Below are positions 30,201 through 63,938 of a DNA stretch of 64,000 nt, piece after piece (positions within the stretch are counted from its first letter, which is position 1; each line of letters starts with the position of its first letter). This stretch comes from Daphnia pulex (lineage: Eukaryota > Arthropoda > Branchiopoda > Diplostraca > Daphniidae). Below the pieces are notes generated by a model, which worked only from the letters and a program-made list of their open reading frames with translations, did no database searches and was not told the origin of the DNA. Location: the NCBI RefSeq assembly GCF_021134715.1, contig NC_060021.1:6666501-6730500 (forward strand), given 5' to 3'. The position numbers and the translations under genes were made by a program.

Positions 30201-33200
30201 AGCAGCTGCAGTAGCTCGTCGAGCATCGGAGTTGGGCGGATCCCTCCGCCGCAACAGCAAGCCAAAACCGGAATGCTCAGCGCTGCCGTCCGGGCCCACC
30301 AACAAAAGCAACTGGACGGAGGAGCAGCCGACGGATTCCGCACTCAAAAGGTTCGCTTCCTCCTATACATAAATTAAATTCAATTATTTGATGGCTCGAC
30401 AAAAGTTCACTGGGTCGATTGCGATGCCTGGGCGTGTGGACAACAGGCCAGACACAACAAGAATAAAATAGGGGGGAGGAGAAAGAGAAAGGATCAATAC
30501 CGTCAGACGGGCCGATGGGAATTTGAACAGCTGCGTCTCTAGCTAGACCAGGGCCAGCTGGGATAATTTCACAGGGCCATGATTGATGAGAGAGCGAGAC
30601 GTCGTGTGTCTGACTGCGCTGAAAATGGCGATAATTGTTATAATTTCTTTTCTTATTGTCTTCTTTTTTCGACAGTCGCCTTTTGTGGCCGCTCGTCCCA
30701 GCGATATCTTCGTCTATCCGCAGCATCCAGCAGCCGAGGCGTCGCAGGATTGTTACGACATGCCGAGATCATTGCACCAAACATTGATCCGCCAGGACTC
30801 GTCCAACTATCAGGCGCCCCGCTCCCATCGCTCGCCTCCTCCGGCCCAGTCTGCCATTCAAAACGTTGCCGCTTTTGCGGATTACGACGTTCCGCGTCCG
30901 CATCACAACCGAATCCAGCCAGTTAGAACGCCATCCGTGGATAGCAGGTACTATAACTTTAATGTTGATTATTCGATTCGCCTTGTCCTTGGTTTTCTCC
31001 ATCCATTACGAGCCATTGTTTAGCATGAATGGTTTTTAATTGACGATGCCGGAATCGAACCAAGGCCGGAATTTGTTGTTTTCTTCTTTTTTTTTTGTAG
31101 TAGATGTTACTTGAAGTGGAAGAAAAAAAGTCTTTTGTCTTATTATTTGTTGTCGGTTTCTTTGTCATTCAATTAGTTGCGAGTACGACGTGCCCCGTCC
31201 GTCTATGGAGACTTACGATACGCCGCGATTGGTGGCCATCAGCGGCAATGGCTCAAGTGGCGACAGTCCTCCACCCATGTCCTTATCGACGACTTCAACA
31301 ACAATGGGAGACGAGTACGATGTCCCGGTCCCGACCGCTCGCTTGCCAAATCAAAGTCACAACGGCTGCGGCAGCAACAATCTGTCGGATCGATCCAGCG
31401 GCGTCTCGCTCTTCTCGTCCGGCAGCAGCAGTTCCGACGGCTCATCGGCCATTTCCAACGCTAATCGATCCGTCAGCTCAGAGTCGCTCTCGCTGTCCAG
31501 CGCCGTGGGTCGCATTTCTGGCCGCTCCAGCCGCTCCAGCATCATCGATCAGCAGCAACAATCGTTCGAACTCTATGACGTCCCAACGTCCAACCATCAG
31601 GTAGTCAAAGAAGCGCTTCCTGCCAGTCAGCCCATTCAGGAAGAGGTTTATGACGTGCCGAAACCGGCGGCCGCTGTCGTGCCAGAAAGCGAAACCGCTT
31701 ACGACGTTCCACCGCCGCCCACCGTCGTCACGGAAGACGCCGGGCAATCCCAGCAGCAGCAGCTTGTCTACGATATTCCACCCTCCTCTCGTCCGATCGT
31801 TGCGTCAGCCAGGCTGCCGGCCGGCAGCAGCCAACAGCAGCAGCAGACAATAAGTCATCCGACTCCCTGTGAACAGCCAGGAGAAGATACTTACGATAGC
31901 CCGAAACCATTATTGGGCGACTGGACGGATAAGGTGTCCAGCAGCAACGCCACTCTGCCGCTGCCATTAGACGCGGCGCTGGAAACGTTGAGTCGGTTGG
32001 ACGCGGAAGTATCCAGTGCTATAAGTAACTTGCTGAGCTTTTGGCGAGCTGCTTCGGGTGGCGACTGGGCTGAGCTCCAGCTGCGTGTGCTCCGGCTGCG
32101 TGCGTCGCTCCAGGAACTCTGCGACTTTGCTCGAGGGGCCATCGGCAACGCTTCGCAACGCCTCAAAAATGGAGTCGGCGATCAAGGTGTCACTATCCGA
32201 TTGATACGTCTCCTCCGGCCGCTTCAAGATGCCAACGCCATCGTTCAAAAGACATCGCAGAGTTGTATGGATCTTTTCGCCACTAGCCGGCGGCGGCCCA
32301 ACAGCGAGAACGATGCAGAGCTAGACCAGCTGTTGGCTTGCTGTCGAAATTTGGGCGATGATATGCGACAGGTAATGACCACCACCACCTACCCCGCCAA
32401 CTCGAGCGTGACTCGGTTCTTTTATAAACCGGCACGGTCGTTTCGTTTTTCCTTTTTTCACAGTCGTATGCATTTTTGGGGGGTCAGCTATATACTGATG
32501 GGGAAACGGAACTCGATCGGGCTCAAAGGAGCAGAACACATTTCCTGTTGGAATAATCAATTTTCTTATTTTAGGTCGTTACGTTCATACAGAGCAATGG
32601 CCATCTTTTGTTCGATACCAACAACAAAAACCAGACGGATAATAATTCGACGAACGACGACTACGATTACGTCAATCTCGAATCCAAAGCCAAATTCGAT
32701 CAGGAAAACGAAGAAGTGAAACGTACCTTACCGCACGAAATGAAGAGGGCATTCGACGTTCTAGTTGCCCAGTCTGAAGATTTACCCGTGTTGCCAACCG
32801 CCGCCAACGACCAGGTTCGTATTTCCTAATGCAGAGAAATTCGACACTTGAATAGGAGAGAATTTTCTAAATTTCTTTATTATCTTTTAGGTCAGCGATA
32901 ATGACCGGAACGTGATGGAATTCTATGGGAGCCAGGCCGAGACTTATGCCGTTTATCTAAGCAACGCCATCGATGCCTTCATCTTGACGCTGGAGCACAA
33001 TCAGCCCCCCAAAGTGTTTGTGGCCTACTCCAAATTTGTCATCCTTAATGCCCATAAGCTGCTCTGCATTGGAGACACCGTTCACCGCAACGTTGTCAAC
33101 GCCAAACTCAAAGCCAGCGTTCTAGAACGGTCCAACCAACTCTGCCAAGTTTGTGCTTTTTTACCAACAGGCTCTTTTTCAAGTGGTTGGGGGGAAAAAT

Positions 33201-36648: not shown

Positions 36649-39459
36649 ATGCCTAAGAATTACGTGACATCCGACGAAAAGGAATTCAAAATTCCTCACA
36701 TTAACTTGGCCTACAATCACGAAATGGTACGTAGCGCAGTAATTTTTTTGAAACGAATATTCCTGCTTGATGCTTTATTACAGCTTATCTACTAATTTTA
36801 ACTTACGTAAGTTTTAACCACCCAGCCCCTTTTACACATACTAACTCCTTTTCGCGGCCTTGGGCATGTCCTAGTCTTGTCCATCAATATATTATCATTG
36901 TTTGGTTAATCTTTTTGGGTTTCAAATAGGACGAGAAGCAAGGTTTAGGGGGAAATAGTCTACAAACAACCGTGGAACTTGCATCACATAATCCAATGGG
37001 AAACTTGACCAATCAACCAGTGACCTACACTTGGGAAAACATTGAAGCAGAAGTCGATGTTGTAGAAGGTAGTTGTCGAAAGAAGACGACCACGCGAAAA
37101 CGCATCCTCGATCATGGTAGAAAATTATCAATGAAAAATGGTTTTGATTAGACGTTACATAACCCCATTCTTCTTCTCTTAAAGTTACGGGGGCTGTACA
37201 GCCGGGAGAGTTCCTGGCCATCATGGGGGCAAGCGGGGCAGGAAAGACGACACTACTAAATTGTCTGACGTTCCGCAACACGGGAAAACTAAAGATCACC
37301 GGGACGAGGTACCTGAACGGCGCACCAGTCAACACGGATAAGTTAGCGCGAATTTCAGGATACGTTCAGCAAGAAGATCTTTTCATCGGCACCTTAAAAG
37401 TGGGAGAGGTCCTTCGTTTTCAAGCTTTATTACGAATGGATAAACATTTTACCTACGAAGAAAGAATGCAAAGAGTCGAAGAAGTTATTTTAGAATTAGG
37501 ACTAACCAAATGTCGTAACACACTCATTGGAAATCCTGAAAAGGGAATTAAAGGCATCTCGGGCGGAGAAAGGAAACGTCTAGCATTCGCTTGTGAGGTT
37601 AGTTAACTTTATAAAAGGCAATAATAGTTTAAATTAATTGAGATTAATTTTCTTCTCTAAATGTCAACCTCAACAGGTACTTACCAATCCATCGTTGATG
37701 TTCTGCGATGAGCCCACTTCAGGTTTGGACTCTTTTATGGCTCAGAATATCGTACAGGTATTTCGTTTTTAATTAATGTCAAACAAATAAAGCTTAACTA
37801 TTGTCACGTGATGTTTGAAGGCATTGAAAAATTTAGCATCAGCAGGAAAGACTGTTATTTGCACGATCCATCAGCCGTCTTCCGAAGTCTTTGCCATGTT
37901 TGATCGTATCTTGTTGATGGCTGAAGGAAGGACAGCTTTCCTAGGGCCAATTGATGATTGTCTTCATTTCTTTTCTACTCAAGGAATGCCATGCCCGGCC
38001 AATTATAATCCAGCTGACTTTTACATATTTAGCTTGGCTACTGTGCCGGGCAAGGAGACCGAGTCCCGCCAGAAAATTAAATACGTATGCGATGCTTACG
38101 AATCTTCTATATCTGCGAAACACGTTAAAGAAGTCGTTCAAAGAGAACATCAAGAGATCAACCGGAAAGATCAGGCACAGGGTTCAGCAACAATGAAAAA
38201 ATCACCTTACAAGGCCAATTTCTTCCAGCAGTTCTCAGCCGTCCTTTGGCGCTCCTTCCTGTCGGTCGTCCGTGATCCTCAGATTTTGTTAGTGAAGGCA
38301 TCTTCTTCTGTCGTAAGTCGATAAAGAGCATTAATTGTTTGACACATGGAACTAGCAGTTAATTGGTTGACACTTGACAGTTCATCGCTCTTTTGATTGC
38401 CCTCATCTATCAAGGACAAACTATGGATGCCAGTAGCTCCTTAAATATTCAGGGCGTTCTGTTTCTGTTCCTCACCAACGCAACTTTCGAAAATGTCTTC
38501 GCAGTTATAAATGTATAGTTTGAAACCTTTTCATCAAATCAGTCAAATATTTTTGCGCATGAACTAAATGGGTTTTTACTTACTTGCAGACTTTTTCATT
38601 CGAACTGCCAATATTCTTACGGGAGCACTTTAACGGCATGTACCGGACGGACGTCTACTTTTTGTCCAAAACTATTGCTGAGTTGGGAGTTTACATCCTC
38701 TTCCCGTTCATCGCCTTCGCAATTCCATATTACATCATTGGCTTGAATCCGGCAGTGGAAAGATTCTTTATCGGGGCTGGTATCGTCATTCTTGTGACAA
38801 ACGTCGCCACCTCTTTCGGTGAGTTATCCAGACTTATTCTTCATGAAAAGGGAATACCTTCTTAGATCACATTGTCAATTCTTGGAACATATTTTGATTT
38901 CAGGCTATTTCGTTTCGTGTGTTGCGTCGACGCCCCAGGTTGCTCTTGCTATTTCAGCACCCATGATTATTCCTGTACTGCTTTTCGGTGGTTTTTTCCT
39001 GCAAAACGGTTCGGTTCCTGTTTACCTGGACTGGTTGCGTTACCTGTCCTGGTTTATGTACGGCAATGAAGCCCTATCCATTAACCAGTGGTACGGCGTC
39101 GAGTTCAACAACACAGATTGTCAATACGTTGGCTATAACGTCTCTGCCATCGCTGACCTTCTTCCTGAGGACGCGAGTGGGCCCATTGTACAACTTGTTG
39201 ATATTATTACCGGTCTTTACGCAGCTTACGAGAAAAACGTCGCTTGTAGCGGAGAAGATATTCTGGCAATTTACAACTTCAAACCAGTACTTACGCACGA
39301 TTTCAACCTTTAAAAAAAAAATTCTTGATAAAAATATTTAAATCCATTTTTACCTTATAGGAGTATTTTTACCGTGATATAGCCTGCCTAGGAGGCCTCA
39401 TTATCCTATTCCGCATGTGTGCATTTCTTTCACTACTCGGAAAAACCTACAGAAAATAA
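36649..39459 (+). CDS. White-like ABCG half-transporter, copy 1
   Basis: Nine exons join in frame: 36649-36726, 36930-37116, 37185-37597, 37677-37757, 37821-38312, 38381-38512, 38590-38818, 38904-39286 and 39361-39459, for 697 residues. The ATPase domain comes first: Walker [10 protein letters not shown] at 103-111, signature ISGGERKR at 213-220, Walker [13 protein letters not shown] at 233-244 and H-loop His270 in TIHQPS. Six membrane segments follow, with [19 protein letters not shown] and WFMYGNEAL matching Drosophila White closely. White works as a heterodimer with Scarlet or Brown to move pigment precursors into eye granules. Crustacean paralogues may have other substrates, so the symbol is left blank. 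The neighbour downstream is its tandem duplicate with the same exon plan. Confidence 0.93.
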
Positions 39460-39880
39460 TAGATTGTATAATTGCCACAATAACAAAACTGTTGAATTGC
39501 TTCACGATATTGTATCAGTAAAATATTAATTACATTTTCAGCTTCATTAACTTTAAAAAAATTTGTTTCCTATTGAACCAAATCATTAAAACTTAACTTT
39601 AACTAGCCCAAAATGGAAACATGCAAATTCGAATTAATTTAGATTTTAAAATATATATTATTAATTTATTATCAGTTCTAATTTAGGCCAGCTGATGTTA
39701 AGTTTTTATCATCATGCGACTGAGTAAAGATCTATACTGATTGGTGGTTGCCACGATAACAGAGTGTTGCACGCTTAGACAACGTTATTCTAGTCGCATC
39801 GACAATCGAGTGTACTGGGCATCCCGTAAAAAACACTCTGCCAAACAGCCTTCACAAATTGTAGTCTTCTGTCACGAAAA
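39460..39880. promoter_or_regulatory. Spacer and upstream region of ABCG copy 2
   Basis: A spacer of 421 bp between the tandem genes. Its last 150 bp share short blocks with the upstream region of copy 1 (ATACTGATTGGTGG near 39735, CAATCGAGTGT near 39804), indicating that the duplicated unit carried promoter sequence with it. Confidence 0.5.
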
Positions 39881-42636
39881 ATGCCTAAGAATTATAGTGT
39901 GACAACCGACGAAAAAGAATTCAAAATTCCTCATGTTAACTTGGCCTACGATCATGGAATGGTAAGTAATGTCAGGCTTCTTTTAAGGTTTTTTTTTTTC
40001 TATTTGATGTTTTACAGCTTATCTAGTCATTTTAACATGTACATTTTGAACTCTCACTTCTTTAACGCTACCTTTAAGAGGCCTTAGACATATCATAGTC
40101 TTGTCGACGATTATATTATCGTAGTGGGTAAAATATTGCTTGACTCTCAAATAGGACAGCAGGAAAAGTTTTGGGGAAAATAGTCAACAAGCAACCGTAG
40201 AACTTACACCACAGGATCCGAGGGGATATTTGACAAGTCAACCAGTGACCTACACTTGGGAAAACATTGAAGCAGAAGTTAATGTTGCCGAAGGTAGTTG
40301 TCGAAAGAAAACGGCCACGCGAAAACGTATCCTCGATCATGGTAGAAAATTATCAGTGAAACATGTTTTAGATTAGACCTTACATAATTACCAATTCGTC
40401 CTAATTCACAGTTACCGGAGCTGTACAGCCGGGAGAGTTCCTGGCCATCATGGGGGCAAGTGGAGCAGGAAAGACGACACTACTGAATTGTCTGACGTTC
40501 CGCAACACGGGAAAACTAAAGATCACCGGGACGAGGTACCTGAACGGCGCACCAGTCAACACGGATAAGTTAGCGCGAATTTCAGGATACGTTCAGCAAG
40601 ATGATCTCTTCATCGGTACCTTAAAAGTGGGAGAGGTCCTTCGTTTTCAGGCTCTATTACGAATGGATAAACATTTTACCTACAAAGAAAGAATGCAAAG
40701 AGTTGAAGAAGTTATTGTAGAATTAGGACTAACCAAATGTCGTGACACACTCATTGGAAATCCTGAAAAGGGAATTAAAGGCATCTCGGGCGGAGAAAAG
40801 AAACGTCTAGCGTTCGCCTGTGAGGTACGTTAACCTAAAAAAGCACAATAAGAATTTAAATTCATTGTAATGATAATTTTCTTACTATGTCAACAGGTAC
40901 TTACCAATCCATCGTTGATGTTCTGCGATGAGCCCACCTCAGGTTTGGACTCTTTTATGGCTCAGAATATCGTACAGGTATTTCATTTTAAATTAAATGC
41001 ATTCAAACGAATGTTAACCATTGTCAATTGATATAAAAGGCCTTGAAGAGCTTAGCATCCGCCGGAAAAACTGTGATTTGCACGATCCATCAGCCGTCTT
41101 CCGAAGTCTTTGCCATGTTTGATCGTATCTTGTTGATGGCTGAGGGGAAGACAGCTTTTCTAGGGCCTATTGACGATTGCCTACGATTCTTTTCTACGCA
41201 AGGGATGCCGTGTCCATCCAATTATAATCCAGCGGATTTTTACATTTTCAGCTTGGCTACTGTGCCGGGCAGAGAAACCGAGTCCCGTCAAAAAATTAAA
41301 TATGTATGCGATGCTTACGAATCTTCTATGACAGCGAAACACGTTAAAGCAGTCGTTCACAGAGAACACCACGAAACAAACAGGAGAGATAAAGCCCAGG
41401 ATTCGGAAAAAATTAAAAAATCCCCTTACAAAGCTAATTTTTTCCAACAATTCTCAGCCGTCCTATGGCGTTCTTTCGTGTCAATCATTCGTGATCCAGA
41501 TATTCTAATGATCAAAGGAGCTTCTTCTACGGTAAATCGGTAAAAACTTTGCTGCGGACTAATGTGAAACAAACGTCCGGTTTTGTTAACAGTTCATCGC
41601 TCTTTTGATTGCCGTCATCTATCAAGGCCAAACTCTGGATGCCAGCAGTTCTTTTAATATTCAAGGCGTTCTATTTGTGTTGCTGACTAACGCTACTTTC
41701 GAAAATGTCTTCACAGTTATTCAGGTAAGCTTTAAATAATTCTATCAATTTAAAGCTAAATATGGCTGCACATAAACAAAATGGATTTACTTACACTCAG
41801 ACCTTTTCATTCGAATTGCCAATATTCTTGCGTGAGCATTTTAATGGCATGTACCGGACGGACGTCTACTTTTTGTCCAAAACATTTGCTGAATTGGCGG
41901 TTTACATCGTTTTCCCGTTCATCGGCTTTGCAATTCCATATTACATCATTGGCTTAAATCCGGCAGTGGAAAGATTTTTTATCGGGGCAGGGATCATTAT
42001 CCTTGTGACAAACGTCGCCACCTCTTTCGGTGAGTTATGGAATTTAAAAAAAAAGCATAGATTAATTGATTATTTTTTAAATATAGGGTATTTTGTTTCG
42101 TGTATCGCTTCGACGCCTCAAGTTGCTCTTGCTATTTCAGCACCCATGATTATTCCTGTACTGCTTTTCGGTGGTTTTTTCCTGCAAAACGGTTCGGTTC
42201 CTGTTTACCTGGACTGGATAAGCTACCTGTCCTGGTTTATGTACGGCAATGAAGCCCTATCCATTAACCAGTGGTACGGCGTCGAGTTCAACAACACAGA
42301 TTGTCAATATGTCGGCTACAACATCACTAAATTCACTGATTTTCTTCCTGAAAACGCGGATGGACCCATTGCAAATTTTATAGAAGTTCTTACCGGTATT
42401 TACGCAGCTTATGAAAAAAACGTCGCTTGTAGCGGAAACGACATTCTTGAAAATTACAACTTCAATCCAGTATCTATGCACTTTTTTCTAAAATCTTTCA
42501 AACTTATTTATAAAAATAATTTCACTTTTTTCAGGGGTATTTTTACCGTGATATAGCCTGCCTAGGAGGCCTAATTATTCTATTCCGTATTTGTGCACTA
42601 CTTGCACTACTTGGAAAAACCTATTGGAAAAAGTAA
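39881..42636 (+). CDS. White-like ABCG half-transporter, copy 2
   Basis: Nine exons match copy 1 one for one: 39881-39961, 40155-40341, 40412-40824, 40897-40977, 41040-41531, 41593-41724, 41801-42029, 42087-42469 and 42535-42636, giving 699 residues. Exons 2 to 8 have the same lengths as in copy 1; exons 1 and 9 are each one codon longer. Walker A, signature (ISGGEKKR), Walker B and H-loop are intact, so the protein should be active. Exons 3 and 4 and the middle of exon 8 are nearly identical to copy 1, whereas exon 2 and the extracellular loop near the end of exon 8 have diverged. It is probably a partner-dependent ABCG transporter of the White group with unknown substrate. Confidence 0.93.
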
Positions 42637-53626: not shown

Positions 53627-56600
53627 ATGATGACCGAAATTGATCTAAATGATGCTGATGCCAAAAAGGTACACACAACTCATCCGCATTATTGTTTTAA
53701 AAGATTTCAAGTGTATTAGCCAACCGATTTGATCTCGCACAGAAATTCAAGTATCCCGTGTCGGTGTTTTTCATCATCGTCAACGAGTTTTGCGAGCGAT
53801 TCAGTTACTATGGCATGAAAAGTGAGTATTCTTTCAAATTGTTCAAGTCAATTATACATCTGAATTTAACGAATAATCGTGTTTCTTGCTGCGCAGCTGT
53901 GCTTGGCCTATATTTTCGTGATATCTTGTTGTACGATGAAAGCGAGTCAACTGTCTACTATCATCTTTTCTCTATGCTCTGCTATTTCACACCCGTTTTT
54001 GGAGCTATTCTGGCAGACACATACCTCGGGAAATTCAAGTAAAAAAGACAATTTTGAAATTGGCGCTAAAATAATCCTAATCCGGAAATTTCTTTTTGGT
54101 TTCACAAAAATTTAGGACGATTCTCTATCTTTCAAGTAAGTGTTCCTGGTTTCTATTTATTTTATTTTTTCTTATCAGTAAAAGATTTGTAAACGTTTAA
54201 ACAGTTCTCTATGCCTGCGGTAACATCATGCTAAGCGTGGCCTCCATACCAAACACGCTGCCACAAAAGTAAGTGTTGTTATTTAAAATAAATTGTGTAG
54301 CCTCCAGGACACATAGACAGCACATGCTGACTCACCATCTATCAATTTTTTAAAAAATTTCCGTATTAAATTCTCCTTTTGTGAATTCTTTACGCAGAGA
54401 ATTTTCTCTTTTGGGATTGTTCATCATCGGTGTGGGCACGGGCGGCATCAAGCCCTGCGTGTCGGCCTTTGGTGGCGAGCAATTCGTCCGGCCTCAGCAA
54501 GACAAGCAGCTCGAGCAATTCTTTTCGTATTTCTACATTTCAATCAATGCCGGATCACTTCTCTCCACTTTACTGACACCCATTCTCCGAGAGGATATCC
54601 AATGCTTCGGACAGAGTTCTTGCTTCCCTTTGGCATTTGGCGTTCCGGCCATCTTGATGATCGTCGCAATCGGTAAACATTACATCAAATCCCATCCATT
54701 TTGCATGCCCGTCAAAATAATTTTTCAAATTGGTATTTTTGCGATTTCTCAATGCACTTTCCCTTCGACCAAACAAAAGTTGTTTTCTTTTTCGGCAAGT
54801 GGAACTACAAGATGCGCCCTACGGAAGGAAATATCATGGTCGACGTATCAAAATGCATTGCCGTAATAATTCCTACCTCAAATAATTATCTGCTAATTAA
54901 TTATGTGATTAAAACAATTCAATTTCTTTTGAAAACAGCACGCAATCGGGAGAAAGTTCAGGAGCACGGACGAAAAACATGACCACTGGCTGTATTTCGC
55001 TTCCGATAAATTCGATATGGAATTAATTAAGGACATCAAACAAGTTCTGCACGTTTTAGTCCTCTATCTACCCATTCCCGTTTTCTGGGCTCTCTACGAC
55101 CAGCAGGTATTTTTATTCAAATGGTTGGCATCGATCCCGACTCTTGACATTGTATGACGCGTATGTCGTAGGGATCTCGATGGCTGTTTCAAGCGACCAG
55201 AATGGATGGCAGTTTAGGCTTCATGTCCGTCAAACCTGATCAAATCGGAATCGTCAATCCTTTGCTGATCATAGCCATTACGCCTCTGTTCAACAGTTTG
55301 ATTTATCCCTGCTTCAAGAAATGCGGATTGTTGACTCCGCTCCAACGAATCGGAACAGGTGGTCTGCTCATTGGAATATCTTTCGTTATCTCCGGAATTG
55401 TCGAGCTCAACTTGGAGGTATAGCTAGATTTTGTCATAGTTTTGAATTTCCCTATCTCCCTATAATCTTGTTTGAACATAGACAACGTATCCTCGTATTC
55501 CAGCACCAGGGTTGACCCAGCTGAACTTTATCAACACTTTGCCGTGCCCGGTAAACATTTCCTACGCTCACGGAAACCATCCGGACAAATGGCTGGATGT
55601 GGGTGCCAAGAGTTTTTCTTTTGAGCGAGATCTCATGGATGGACCTATCCGAGTCAAAGCCAATTTGTTGAGTCCTCGTTGTCAAGATGTTACCTTCTCG
55701 AATGCGGAATGGACTGGAACGATTGAAGGTGTTAGCACAAAGGTAACAACAAAAATGGACGGAATATTTTCAATGTTGCAATCTGATTCTTGTTTCTCTG
55801 CTTTGGGGGATTCAGGCCTTTTCTGTCGTTGTTACCGTTCGAAATGGCAAACTGGAAGTCGCTCGGATGAAGACGGAAGAGCCTTTGGACAAGGCCAATT
55901 CCGGCCATCCTCGTGTTGGGTACTTGTGCAAATTAATTTGTGTTTCAAAAGTCAATACTTTAATTTAAATCGATTATAGGTTTATCTTCAATTTGAACAA
56001 CGACTCGTACGATCAAGGCAACATCACATTAAAGTCGAGTTCTAAGATATTCCATTTGCCGTTTATTGCCTCCAATTTTTCTTCGACCCTTGATCGACTG
56101 GTGAGCACGGACACCATAGAAGTAGACGTTGGCACGTAAGCACACAATGATTTTTAAACGAAATGCACTTTCAATTATCTCAAGGCTCTTTTCGATGATA
56201 GATATAAAGTGTTTATACCACGCAAGGACGGCGGAGTCAACACCGACGATGAAGCTGGATCCATTACCGTTCTACAAGGAGGCTGTTACACCATTGTCGT
56301 CCAGCGCTCGCTGAATCCGTTGTCAGGCGAAAATGAAGACGGCGTAATAAGATTCACTTTTTTAAAATTTGAAAACCGCGGGATAGTATAATTGAATATT
56401 GAAAAACCCAACAGCTCGTGATGCCGATTGAAGTGACTCCGTACAACTCTATCCACATGATGTGGCTCTTACCTCAGTATTTCATCATCACTGCTGGAGA
56501 GGTCATGTTCTCAGTCACGGGTTTGCAGTTTTCTTTCACTCAGGTACAGCGGCCAATTTGAGATGCAATCAACTCCCAAAAATAAACAATTAAACTTCCA

Positions 56601-56973
56601 GGCTCCCGAGAGAATGCAGTCAGTGATGCAAGCCGCTTGGCTGTTGAATGTCGCATTTGGTAATCTCATTGTGACGGTTGTAGCCAAAGCCAAATTAATT
56701 CCCAGACAGGTATAATTAATAAGAACCCGCACCAGAAAATGTGACTTATCACATCAGATGAATTAATCCGCTTCAACTTTTTCGCAGTCAATGGAATTCT
56801 TCCTTTTCGCCGGTCTTATCGCGCTGGATATCATCCTGTTTGTGATCCTCGCTCTCCGTTACACGTACGTCGAAGATGAAAAAGAAAAATCCGAAAGCAT
56901 GAAAAGGCTGCGCTCTTCTACGGTGAAAGAAGGAACCGATAATAAGGCATTTACTTCCGAGACGGCGATATAG
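53627..56973 (+). CDS. SLC15/POT proton-coupled peptide transporter, copy 1
   Basis: Sixteen exons join in frame: 53627-53668, 53743-53821, 53897-54038, 54116-54135, 54205-54268, 54398-54672, 54780-54862, 54939-55106, 55172-55417, 55482-55742, 55816-55919, 55980-56135, 56202-56343, 56415-56543, 56602-56709 and 56788-56973, for 734 residues. The POT signature is clear: NEFCERFSYYGMK (ExxER motif of helix 1), FGAILADTYLGKF and FYISINAGSL. A large extracellular region lies in the second half, as in PEPT1/PEPT2. The protein should import di- and tripeptides with protons across the plasma membrane, for example in gut. It shares its exon plan with copy 2 except for an intron at 54136-54204, which leaves a 20-nt fourth exon. 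Confidence 0.93.
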
Positions 56974-59040: not shown

Positions 59041-62000
59041 ATGACCGCCAACAAGGATGTGGAAACATGTCACGCACAGGTAACCGCAAACGAAGTGTCA
59101 AAAACAAACCAAACGAAGAACATTTGTGTTTCGTCTCTTCATGCATTTGTATTCATTTCGACGTCGAATCGCTTCATTTTTAATATTGCATTAATGAAAT
59201 TAAACAAACCACAGCCATAGTTGACATTTTCAGAGCTGTGGGAATGCAGCTCCGTTTTTCTATGAAATTCCACGGTCGAGCAAAGGCGTCACGAATCACG
59301 CCAGCGGCCAGTTCGAGAGGTTATTACGTACTCACGTGGGTCGCTGCACTCGCTCCAACAGTCAATGTTGATCAACATATCGCTGTTGGCGCCACATCAT
59401 TTTTTCTTTTTTCAAATTTTTTTTCTACAAGGCTGAATTGTTGTTGAAATTTGGATTCGACACGTCCCTGATTTGCTTCGAATGTGATTGAAATAACAAA
59501 TGTAAAATCACATGGTTTTGTTTGAATCAATTGTTGTAGAAAACCAAGTATCCGGTGGCAGTGTTTTTCATCGTCGTCAACGAGTTTTGTGAGCGGTTCA
59601 GTTATTATGGCATGAAAAGTCAGTATGCATTGATTATTATTATTATGTCATCCATCCGTTCTCAGTTGACAAATCTTTTTTTGATTCATTTAGCGGTGCT
59701 CACGCTCTATTTGCGAGACGTATTGTTGTACGATGAAAATGAATCGACAGTTTGGTACCATCTCTTTTCAATGCTCTGCTACTTCACTCCCGTTTTCGGA
59801 GCCATTCTGGCCGATACGTATCTCGGGAAATTCAGGTATACAATCATTCAAATTTGGCGCTCTAGAAAATGGCGCGCGGGGTAATTCAATTTTGAATTTG
59901 ATGTACAGGACAATTCTCTATCTCTCCTGTCTTTACGCTTGCGGTAACGTTCTGCTGAGTGTGGCATCCATACCCAACACTCTGCCACAAAAGTACTTTA
60001 TTTTTTCATGACCGCCTCTGGCTTTCACCGTCTGTTATTTATGCAAATATTACAAAACACATTTTTTACAATTAGGGAGTTTTCACTTTTGGGACTCTTT
60101 ATTATCGCCTTGGGCACGGGTGGAATTAAACCTTGCGTCTCAGCTTTTGGCGGTGAACAGTTTGTCCGTCCGCAGCAAGATAAACAGCTGGAGCAGTTCT
60201 TCTCCGTATTCTATTTCGCCATCAACGCCGGATCGCTTATTTCCACTTTTGTCACGCCCATTCTCCGCGAAGATGTCCACTGTTTCGGCTCGAATTCCTG
60301 CTTTCCATTAGCCTTCGGCGTTCCGGCTTTGCTCATGATCGTCGCAGTAGGTAAGTGCGCAGTTGTCTGTTTAACGGTGAATTTTGTTTGTTTGTTTATT
60401 CTTTTCTCCGCAATATAATTCATTCCGAAATTCCAAAGAAAATAACTGTCGCCGAGATATGAACGTGTTTTCGATTGTCTTGATTAGCTATTTTCTTCGC
60501 GGGAAAATGGAATTACAAGATTCGCCCAGCTGAAGGCAATGTCATGGTTGACGTCGCAAAGTGTGTAGCTGTAAGTTGACGGCAGACAAATGTTTCACTC
60601 CTTTAATGCAAACTATTTCTTTGCATCCAAAAATGGGCCGGTTATGTGTGCAAACTTGGGAATGGTTAACAAATGCATGCTACTCTGTATACTTTTTAAT
60701 GTTTCAAACTTAATTCTTGATATGCTGACCTCTCCGTTCTTATGGCTCCTTAATTCGAATTGATTTCACATATTCTCGTGTCTTATCCAGTGGTCTTCTT
60801 CAGTGGCAGAGGTTGTTACAAAATGAGAGAGGCTGCGGGTAACATTATGGTACAGGTCGTCAAGTGTATGGCGGTACTTATGACTTTTTCATGGTTTTCT
60901 TCCGGCTTCATTTTTAAAAACGACCAATTAAACGCAATTAACACCGTCACTTTTTGACTATGACCGATATTGAACTATTATTTTGACTAATTCCACAGCA
61001 CGCCGTCGGACGGAAGTTCAGGAACAAGGAAGAAAAACACGAACACTGGATCGATTTCGCTGGCGACAAATTCGATCGGCAACTGATTCAAGATATTAAG
61101 CAGGTTCTAAGAGTCCTACTTCTCTACGTTCCTATTCCCGTCTTCTGGGCTTTGTTTGATCAACAGGTATGAATCGCATTTCTTTACAATTCTAAGGTGT
61201 TATTGATTCAAACGTTATATCCTTTTTCCAGGGTTCACGTTGGACATTTCAAGCTACTCGAATGGACGGTACTCTCGGTGCAACCACCATCAAACCAGAT
61301 CAGCTACAAATTGTGAATCCCTTGCTCATTTTGGCGCTGGTGCCCGTGTTTGAAAGCGTCATCTACCCTTGTTTCAAAAAGTGCGGACTACTTACTCCGC
61401 TTCAACGAATCGGCGCTGGCGGATTACTTGCCGGATTGGCTTTCGTCGTTTCGGGCATAGTTGAACTTCAGTTGGAGGTGAAATAATGAAACAAAAAATT
61501 CAATTCTTAAATTTTAATTCTTTTAAATTAAACATTGGTATACAGCCTACCTACCCTCGGATTCCCGACGCTGGATTGACGCAACTGAACTTTATCAACA
61601 CGCTTCCGTGTCCAATCAACATTAGCTACACTGGCGGTGTCGATCAGGTCAAGTGGATTGAAGTCAACGCCACAAGTTATTCGTTTGAAAGGAATCTGAA
61701 AGATCAACCTATCGAAGTCACGGCTCAGTTAATCAATCCCGTCTGTGGACAAGTGAACTTCTCTACTCCGACTTGGACTGGAACGATCAAAGGTGCCAGC
61801 ACAAAGGTGAATATCAATTTAATCTAGACTTGTCATTATTGGGTATCACGTTCACCAACAAATCAATCGATCCGATATCAAACTACAGGCATTTTCCGTT
61901 GTCGCTACTGGACACAATGGCACTCTCGATCTGGTACGAATGGATAAAGAAGAACCACTGGATAAATCCAGTACGGGGCAGCCGCGTGTTGGGTAATCGA

Positions 62001-63123
62001 AAACATTTATTTTTTCTTGCTGACCCACTTAAAATTACTAATTGAAAAATAAAAACCAATACGACAGGTTTATTTTACACATGGACGATCAGTCTCTTGT
62101 TCAAGTCAACATCACCATTAAATCTGGAGAGCGATTAATTCAATTCAATACCAAAACATTTTCTACTTCGTCTTCAGCGCGTTTTATCCAAACTGAAGTG
62201 CGGGATGTCGACGCTGGAACGTGAGTTGCTTCTTTTTCAACTTAAGCCAAAACAAAGTCTTATAGATAATTATTCACAAATAAGGTACGACATCTTCATT
62301 CCTCGTCAAAATGGTGATGTGATCATGGAAAATCCGGATGGACAAATCACAGTTTTACAAGGCGGTTCCTACACGTTCGTCGCTCAACAGACTCACTCAA
62401 ATCCTCAACTTATCGATCTCAAAAGCAATGTACGAACAATCCTACTAAATTATTTTATTGAAGTTGATTCTATTTAATTTGATAATTTTTTTATATTTAA
62501 TTAAGCAGCTCTTAATGCCGGTGCAAGTGACTCCGGCTAGTTCCGTACACATGCTGTGGTTGGTGCCGCAATATTTTATCATGACAATTGCTGAAGTCAT
62601 GTTCTCCGTCACGGGATTACAATTCTCCTTCACACAAGTAAATCATTTAAATGCTGAGAAAAAAAATCCGGCCCTGTAAATAACAATTATAACGTAAATT
62701 GAATTTTGATTCAGGCCCCGGCTAGTATGCAATCTGTCATGCAAGCCGCTTGGCTCTTAACGATCGCGTTTGGTAACCTGATTGTTATCATCGTCGCTGA
62801 AGCAAAGGGAATACCCAGACAGGTGCAGTCTAATTAATACGGCGATAATTGCAGTCACGTAATCGACTTTCTATTAATTCAATTGTTTTCTCTAGTCAAT
62901 GGAGTTCTTCCTATTCGCCGGACTGATGGCAGTCGACATGCTCTTCTTTTTCTATTTGGCCAGCAATTACACTTATGTCGAGTCTGAGAAAGGCGAGAAA
63001 GGTGGCGACGACGCTAAGAAAGTACCTGATCGTTTTCCTTCATCCGTCAAACTTGGCACTGACAATTCAGAGAAGCCAGTAGGGACGGAGAACAAGGGAT
63101 TCTCCGATGACACACCCATGTAA
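59041..63123 (+). CDS. SLC15/POT proton-coupled peptide transporter, copy 2
   Basis: Exons: 59041-59079, 59540-59618, 59694-59835, 59909-59992, 60076-60350, one of 60488-60570 or 60791-60873, 60999-61166, 61232-61477, 61546-61806, 61889-61992, 62068-62220, 62285-62429, 62509-62637, 62715-62822 and 62896-63123. Either choice of the alternative exon gives 747 residues. NEFCERFSYYGMK, FGAILADTYLGKF and FYFAINAGSL mark a proton-coupled oligopeptide transporter with a large extracellular domain in the second half. It is clearly paralogous to copy 1. Exon 4 here corresponds to two exons of copy 1. The C-terminal tail is longer and more charged than in copy 1. Confidence 0.93.
60488..60570 (+). CDS. 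Alternative exon 6a of SLC15 copy 2
   Basis: An 83-nt exon with TGATTAG acceptor and GTAAGT donor, encoding a segment with FFAGKWNYKIRPAEGNVMVD. It enters in phase 1 and leaves in phase 0, exactly as exon 6b and as the single equivalent exon of copy 1 (54780-54862). It resembles copy 1 more closely (FFGKWNYKMRPTEGNIMVD). Confidence 0.85.
60791..60873 (+). CDS. Alternative exon 6b of SLC15 copy 2
   Basis: A second 83-nt exon, 220 bp further on, with a CTTATCCAG acceptor and a weaker GTACTT donor. It encodes FFSGRGCYKMREAAGNIMVQ and leads to the same next exon (60999). Including both 6a and 6b would add 166 nt and break the frame, so the two should be mutually exclusive. Confidence 0.85.
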
Positions 63124-63838: not shown

Positions 63839-63938
63839 ATGAGCCGTAAATCGTCCTCTTCTTCGTCTGACAGTGAAGTGTCGGTTGAGAAAGTTGTTCC
63901 TCCACTCCATGATGAATCAACAACGTCTCACCCTACTC
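63839..63938 (+). CDS. Possible first coding exon of a further gene (partial)
   Basis: An ATG opens a Ser-rich then acidic segment (MSRKSSSSSSDSEVSVEKV) that runs 100 nt to a GTAATT donor. If unspliced it reaches a stop three codons later. A possible acceptor follows near 63981. The window ends too soon to identify the gene. A third SLC15 copy is possible, because the first two begin with short N-terminal exons, but nothing here proves it. Confidence 0.3.

Follow-up and report, generated by a model that had tools for sequence, protein, structure and literature searches.

The window, a stretch of 64,000 nt of Daphnia pulex DNA, contains the first part of a row of four tandem peptide-transporter genes, all on the forward strand. 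The second gene of the row, gene 2 (59041..63123), encodes an SLC15A1/2-type peptide transporter and is the gene that carries the exon pair described below. Rebuilt from its splice sites, it has 15 coding positions, of which position 6 is doubled (coding exons 1-5, 6a/6b and 7-15), with GT-AG junctions throughout. Gene 1 (53627..56973, forward strand) is a paralogue with a lone exon 6 of the 6a kind at 54780-54862. The fifth exon of gene 1 starts at 54205, after an additional 69-nt intron (54136-54204) that leaves a 20-nt exon at 54116-54135; genes 2, 3 and 4 have one unbroken exon of 84 nt at this place, and gene 1 has probably gained the intron.

Genes 3 and 4 lie downstream of gene 2 and mostly past the end of the window, with exon 1 of gene 3 starting at 63839, and were modelled partially (8 and 7 exons, respectively). 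The 3' ends of these two genes, introns included, were near-identical by eye and other parts had diverged, as if the 3' ends had been homogenised by gene conversion. Their neutral branch lengths over the core exons were unequal, at 0.443 (gene 3) and 0.090 (gene 4) substitutions per site, which can be explained by a fast gene 3 or by conversion.

The product of gene 2 matched the POT family and solved SLC15A1/2 over both helical bundles. The PTR2 profile matched residues 1-372 (E 5.1e-94) and the solved SLC15A1 (7pmw) matched query residues 16-404 and 571-714 (E 5.1e-159). The best hit was TIGR00926 (2A1704, oligopeptide:H+ symporter), which was matched over its full profile length with 742.1 bits for the protein containing 6b and 740.6 bits for that containing 6a, neither reaching the curated cut-off of 821.6. 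With PTR2, the scores were 315.8 bits with 6b, 312.4 bits with 6a and 272.6 bits without exon 6, corresponding to a loss of about 40 bits. Elsewhere in the genome, a PTR2-family match was seen on the reverse strand at C11:895735-896259, which is perhaps SLC15A4-like.

A domain scan covering 10 of the 43 open stretches in the window revealed two further features, both on the forward strand. Tandem ABC transporter pieces at 37812-42556 matched ABC2_membrane and ABC2_membrane_7 twice each, and are presumably two adjoining ABCG-like genes. A 534-aa open stretch at 31115-32719 matched the Serine_rich protein-interaction domain (PF08824, E 1.3e-26).

The two copies of exon 6 in gene 2

The alternative exons 6a (60488..60570) and 6b (60791..60873) lie between the constitutive exons 5 (60076..60350) and 7 (60999..61166) and encode AIFFAGKWNYKIRPAEGNVMVDVAKCVA and VVFFSGRGCYKMREAAGNIMVQVVKCMA, respectively, the first codon being split with exon 5 in each case. 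Intron 5 (60351..60487, 137 nt) precedes 6a, the two copies are separated by 220 nt (60571..60790), and the intron 3' of 6b (60874..60998) is 125 nt long. Exon 5 supplies one base of the split codon, and either copy of exon 6 completes 28 codons in frame with exon 7. The mRNAs containing 6a only or 6b only are both 2244 nt in length and open to the usual stop, giving 747 aa each. If both copies are included (2327 nt), a stop is found within 6b at CDS nt 736, with the last exon junction 1.36 kb further on at nt 2099; if both are skipped (2161 nt), the stop falls in exon 7 at nt 718, with the last junction at nt 1933. Nonsense-mediated decay acts on mRNAs with an early stop well before the last junction; the stops in these two mRNAs precede it by 1.2-1.4 kb, and such decay is expected for both. 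The sequence-only reading of this DNA had reported two tandem 83-nt exons of equal phase with alignable peptides, either of which joins exons 5 and 7 in frame and which together shift the frame, as well as a single such exon in the paralogue about 6 kb upstream. The coordinates, lengths, phases, GT-AG sites and both quoted peptides were found to be correct, as was the lone exon in gene 1.

Sequence criteria for mutually exclusive exons, as laid out in the available part of PMC3228551, are the same length, compatible splice sites and reading frame, and homology. The neighbouring exons 6a and 6b are 83 and 83 nt in length, have GT-AG sites and leave both open reading frames intact, and are identical at 15/28 residues with a match score of 86, where no shuffle exceeded 27. 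This score was obtained for the best 27-residue ungapped match to 6a in the region 60571-60998 (428 nt), and the shuffle value is the highest among 500 dinucleotide shuffles. The same region scored 83 with the gene 1 query (maximum 33), 62 with the solved SLC15A1 (maximum 27) and 64 with gene 4 (maximum 23), each compared to 500 shuffles. The resemblance of 6b to 6a is not due to chance.

Gene 2 is the only one of the four tandem SLC15 genes with two copies of exon 6, genes 1, 3 and 4 having one each. The introns flanking exon 6 are 107 and 76 nt in gene 1, 80 and 67 nt in gene 3, and 75 and 78 nt in gene 4, lengths at which another 83-nt exon and its introns could not be accommodated. The genome (133,188,837 bases in 13 contigs) was searched with 6b plus its flanks as the query, and all nine candidates were scored. 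Exon 6 of gene 1, both copies in gene 2 and exon 6 of gene 4 were recovered; no additional copy was found in this search, which is not exhaustive since exon 6 of gene 3, found by reading, escaped it. In a search for orthologues, 30 loci came from a prokaryote collection, each under a bacterial title and with 31-52% identity over part or most of 91 aa, and no match was present in viral contigs.

Exon 6 corresponds to residues 207-234 of the predicted protein and aligns to residues 214-241 of SLC15A1 (7pmw). According to the available text of PMC8565842, the TM5-TM6 loop (residues 189-194) is unmodelled in the solved structures, and a long amphipathic cytoplasmic linker containing two helices connects the two six-helix bundles. 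This linker is named the 'bundle bridge', and the authors describe its role as 'currently unclear'. On this alignment, exon 6 would run from the last turns of TM6 into the first part of the bundle bridge, so that its earlier assignment to a segment just after helix 5-6 and reaching the cytoplasmic linker was roughly right. Within the segment, the charged Asp in NVMVDVAKC of 6a is replaced by Gln in 6b, and the loop KWNYKIRPAEG of 6a by RGCYKMREAAG. A gating role of the swapped segment is a conjecture, and since the swap sits at the cytoplasmic end, substrate choice is less likely to be affected.

Splice sites and possible intron pairing

To score the splice sites, position matrices were derived from 41 donors and acceptors of the four genes, leaving out the sites of 6a and 6b and including the exon 5 donor and the exon 7 acceptor. 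The donors of 6a and 6b scored 3.14 and 3.06, each at rank 41/42, a weakness that is suggestive only since it is partly set by the codon at the exon end. Their acceptors ranked 33/42 and 36/42, respectively. The exon 5 donor (TAG/GTAAGT) and the exon 7 acceptor were both strong, at ranks 4/42 and 10/42. The three introns around the pair (137, 220 and 125 nt) are longer than is usual here, the median of 40 local introns being 73 nt. Two possible causes of exclusive splicing were tried and rejected. Steric hindrance was discarded given the 220 nt between 6a and 6b, as against 57 nt for the shortest of the 40 local introns, and incompatibility with the minor spliceosome was discarded given that the four sites of 6a and 6b are all GT-AG with no U12-like donor by eye.

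Competing RNA pairing governs exclusive exons in Dscam and other insect genes, and pairing between the introns flanking 6a and 6b had been suggested from the sequence. This suggestion was not borne out, as no duplex between these introns was stronger than in shuffles. For the cross-intron duplexes among the three introns, 31, 177 and 88 of 200 shuffles folded at least as well. The single-intron folds gave z values of -1.36, 1.75 and -0.28, none being unusually stable, and the minimum free energy of the whole region was weaker than the average of 40 shuffles (z 1.0). Same-intron duplexes (i5-i5, im-im and i7-i7; 121, 9 and 0 of 200, respectively) were disregarded, the comparison of a self pair to independently shuffled pairs being an unfair control. 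In this single-genome comparison, pairing of the docking-site/selector type is unsupported in the introns of gene 2, and short selector elements may remain.

Constraint on exon 6b under a clock, and its probable age

Of its 28 residues, 6b shares 18 with gene 1, 15 with 6a, 13 with the solved SLC15A1, 12 with gene 4 and 10 with gene 3. The nucleotide differences at the first, second and third codon positions were 8/6/23 relative to exon 6 of gene 1 and 9/7/18 relative to 6a; they are mostly at third positions, which are near saturation, and second positions are little changed. In the conserved core of genes 1 and 2, third positions differ at 176/331. Between exon 6 of gene 1 and 6a they differ at 15/28, which is like the core, so that there is no sign of local gene conversion rejuvenating exon 6 of gene 1 and this candidate was rejected.

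A codon model was fitted to the conserved core after one extra codon of gene 4 had been removed, and its branch lengths were then fixed for exon 6, where the tests comprise 28 codons from five sequences only. Under a clock, the grid optimum placed 6b on the stem before the split of genes 1 and 2 with a dN/dS of 0.2 (lnL -395.13). The lnL fell to -403.60 for the best neutral placement, and to -402.09 for the best of those that put 6b on gene 2's own branch. The difference of 8.47 relative to the neutral null was reached in 0/200 simulations (maximum 4.94), and that of 6.95 relative to the recent-copy null (gene 2 branch) also in 0/200 (maximum 4.24). The clock is approximate, as the neutral branches of gene 1 (0.90 substitutions per site) and gene 2 (0.52) are unequal by a factor of 1.7.

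Exon 6 was also analysed with the clock removed. For exon 6 alone, three topologies were near-equal (lnL -387.8, -388.4 and -389.0), and setting dN/dS to 1 on 6b gave a non-significant 2dL of 0.30 on the best topology, and 7.36 and 5.27 on the others. When the core branch lengths were kept and the clock was dropped, attaching 6b to the stem by a short neutral branch was worse by a 2dL of only 1.73. Neutrality was rejected for unclocked placement on gene 1 or gene 2 (2dL 15.84 and 13.13), and placement on genes 3 and 4 gave a poor fit with neutrality not clearly rejected (2dL 3.03 and 3.07). The conclusions on constraint and age lean on the clock because the unclocked exon 6 tests allow a short neutral branch. 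In the same way, a recent duplication of 6b was rejected under the clock only (0/200), with exon 6 giving an unclocked lnL of -387.8 to -389.0. With this dependence, the codon data argue for coding constraint on 6b (dN/dS about 0.2 under the clock) and for a pair that is probably older than the separation of genes 1 and 2, gene 1 having lost 6b afterwards. No homology was found when the introns flanking 6a and 6b were compared, as expected if the exon duplication is old.

The same results bear on where 6b came from. Rather than by duplication of 6a in place, it could have been copied from another SLC15 gene, now lost or diverged, an alternative that concerns the origin only. The position that the clock gives 6b, outside genes 1 and 2, the lack of flanking intron homology and the 3' ends of genes 3 and 4, which by eye look partly homogenised by conversion, are consistent with such an event. 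However, duplication in place followed by loss from gene 1 gives the same tree, and no donor gene was recovered in the genome search, itself non-exhaustive in that it missed exon 6 of gene 3. A copied-in 6b was considered unlikely.

Still less probable is that 6b serves mainly as a poison exon, its inclusion after 6a introducing a stop and lowering expression through nonsense-mediated decay. The mRNA with both copies does stop in 6b, 1.36 kb before the last junction, but this is a general consequence of a copy length that is not a multiple of three. A poison exon also need not retain its peptide, whereas 6b retains conserved residues, with a dN/dS of about 0.2 under the clock. Marginally behind this comes the proposal that 6b is a relic or pseudo-exon absent from mRNA, with 6a alone making the protein. 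Its weak donor (3.06, below 40 of the 41 donors compared) would be in keeping with a relic, although the donor of 6a is about equally weak, as would the short neutral branch allowed by the unclocked codon models. Against this, the frame, phase and splice sites of 6b are intact, its differences are biased to third positions, its fit to the family profile is as good as that of 6a, and under the clock the observed statistic was reached in 0/200 neutral simulations. The least probable alternative, that both exons are real and no exclusive switch exists, 6a being used nearly always and 6b being rare or noisy and of no consequence, agrees with the search for a cis signal of exclusivity (intron pairing) finding none, but leaves the long constraint on 6b hard to explain without regular use.

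Probable exclusive use of 6a and 6b and its known parallels

Exons 6a and 6b are best explained as an old tandem exon duplication that is used as a mutually exclusive pair, to which we assign a probability of roughly 0.8 from the sequence evidence. The mutually exclusive arrangement proposed in the sequence-only reading is thereby supported, both by an anatomy that corresponds to the criteria in the available part of PMC3228551 and by the constraint on 6b under the clock. In the proposed mechanism, the exon 5 donor and the exon 7 acceptor would each join one alternative exon, trans-acting splicing factors would choose between two weak exons, and mRNAs with both copies or with neither would be cleared by nonsense-mediated decay. 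The resulting 28-residue swap would alter TM6 at its cytoplasmic end, together with the beginning of the bundle bridge, and leave the segments from other exons unchanged. What sets the 6a and 6b isoforms apart would most likely be their turnover rate, their membrane or partner interaction or their regulation, and not the choice of peptides bound. The pair would be older than the split of genes 1 and 2, with 6b subsequently lost from gene 1. More tentatively, and at slightly less than even odds, the one gene may produce two versions of a proton-coupled peptide transporter, identical except at the TM6 end and in the bundle bridge. The exon pair would then predate the separation of genes 1 and 2 and would have been retained as a means of tuning transport kinetics or membrane or partner interaction by tissue, stage or diet.

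The earlier reading knew of no such switching in SLC15. In agreement with this, no mutually exclusive exon pair in SLC15 was described in the titles and abstract starts of the open PMC literature, among the matches listed; a RefSeq model may already list both isoforms. SLC15 and Daphnia are absent from the main text of a survey of arthropod solute carriers (PMC7487162), and 'splice' and 'splicing' do not occur in a review of mammalian PepT2 (PMC9497230). In a splicing study of D. pulex, about 2% of events were mutually exclusive exons and SLC15 is not mentioned in the main text, as far as the available portion extends (PMC7318467). The abstract start of PMC3546484 refers to hPEPT1-RF, which could not be detected there, and to a non-translated hPEPT1 variant. 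These are transcript variants of an SLC15 gene, as those of gene 2 would be, and no exon pair is described in that abstract start.

A close parallel from the same genus is the muscle myosin heavy chain of Daphnia, for which the available part of PMC3228551 reports clusters of mutually exclusive exons. These are tandem homologous exons of which each mRNA takes one, and they were identified with the same criteria of length, splice sites and frame. Unlike gene 2, the myosin gene encodes a motor protein and has several such clusters. In gene 2, the use of one exon per mRNA is predicted from the logic of the reading frame. Among carriers, mutually exclusive exons are reported for SLC25A3 and SLC39A14 in the accessible passages of PMC5740500, where the SLC25A3 exons exemplify an expression switch. 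As in gene 2, an exon is swapped within a carrier, but these carriers are human and of other families. Tandem duplicated exon substitutions in ion transporters of many animals, some of them convergent between vertebrates, arthropods and nematodes, are described in PMC9741552. Like the swap in gene 2 these are old, homologous and mostly conservative; unlike it they occur largely in ion channels, and SLC15 is absent from the best 12 of 20 passages of that source. Given these examples in Daphnia myosin, in SLC25A3 and SLC39A14 and in ion transporters, the gene 2 pair is of a known kind and the SLC15 case newly found, so that a known kind of splicing is apparently new in SLC15.

If the reading of 6a and 6b as exclusive partners is true, the pair in gene 2 would be, to the extent searched, the first of the mutually exclusive type to be reported in SLC15, and would offer a natural probe of the bundle bridge in two states. 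What makes the pair interesting is not a new mechanism but an apparently old swap within a part of the structure whose role is unclear. Through the natural 28-residue swap, two native versions of the bundle bridge would be comparable in an otherwise identical protein. The locus itself diversifies in two ways, by tandem gene copies and by a tandem exon copy, the latter being apparently older than one of the duplications that gave rise to the genes.
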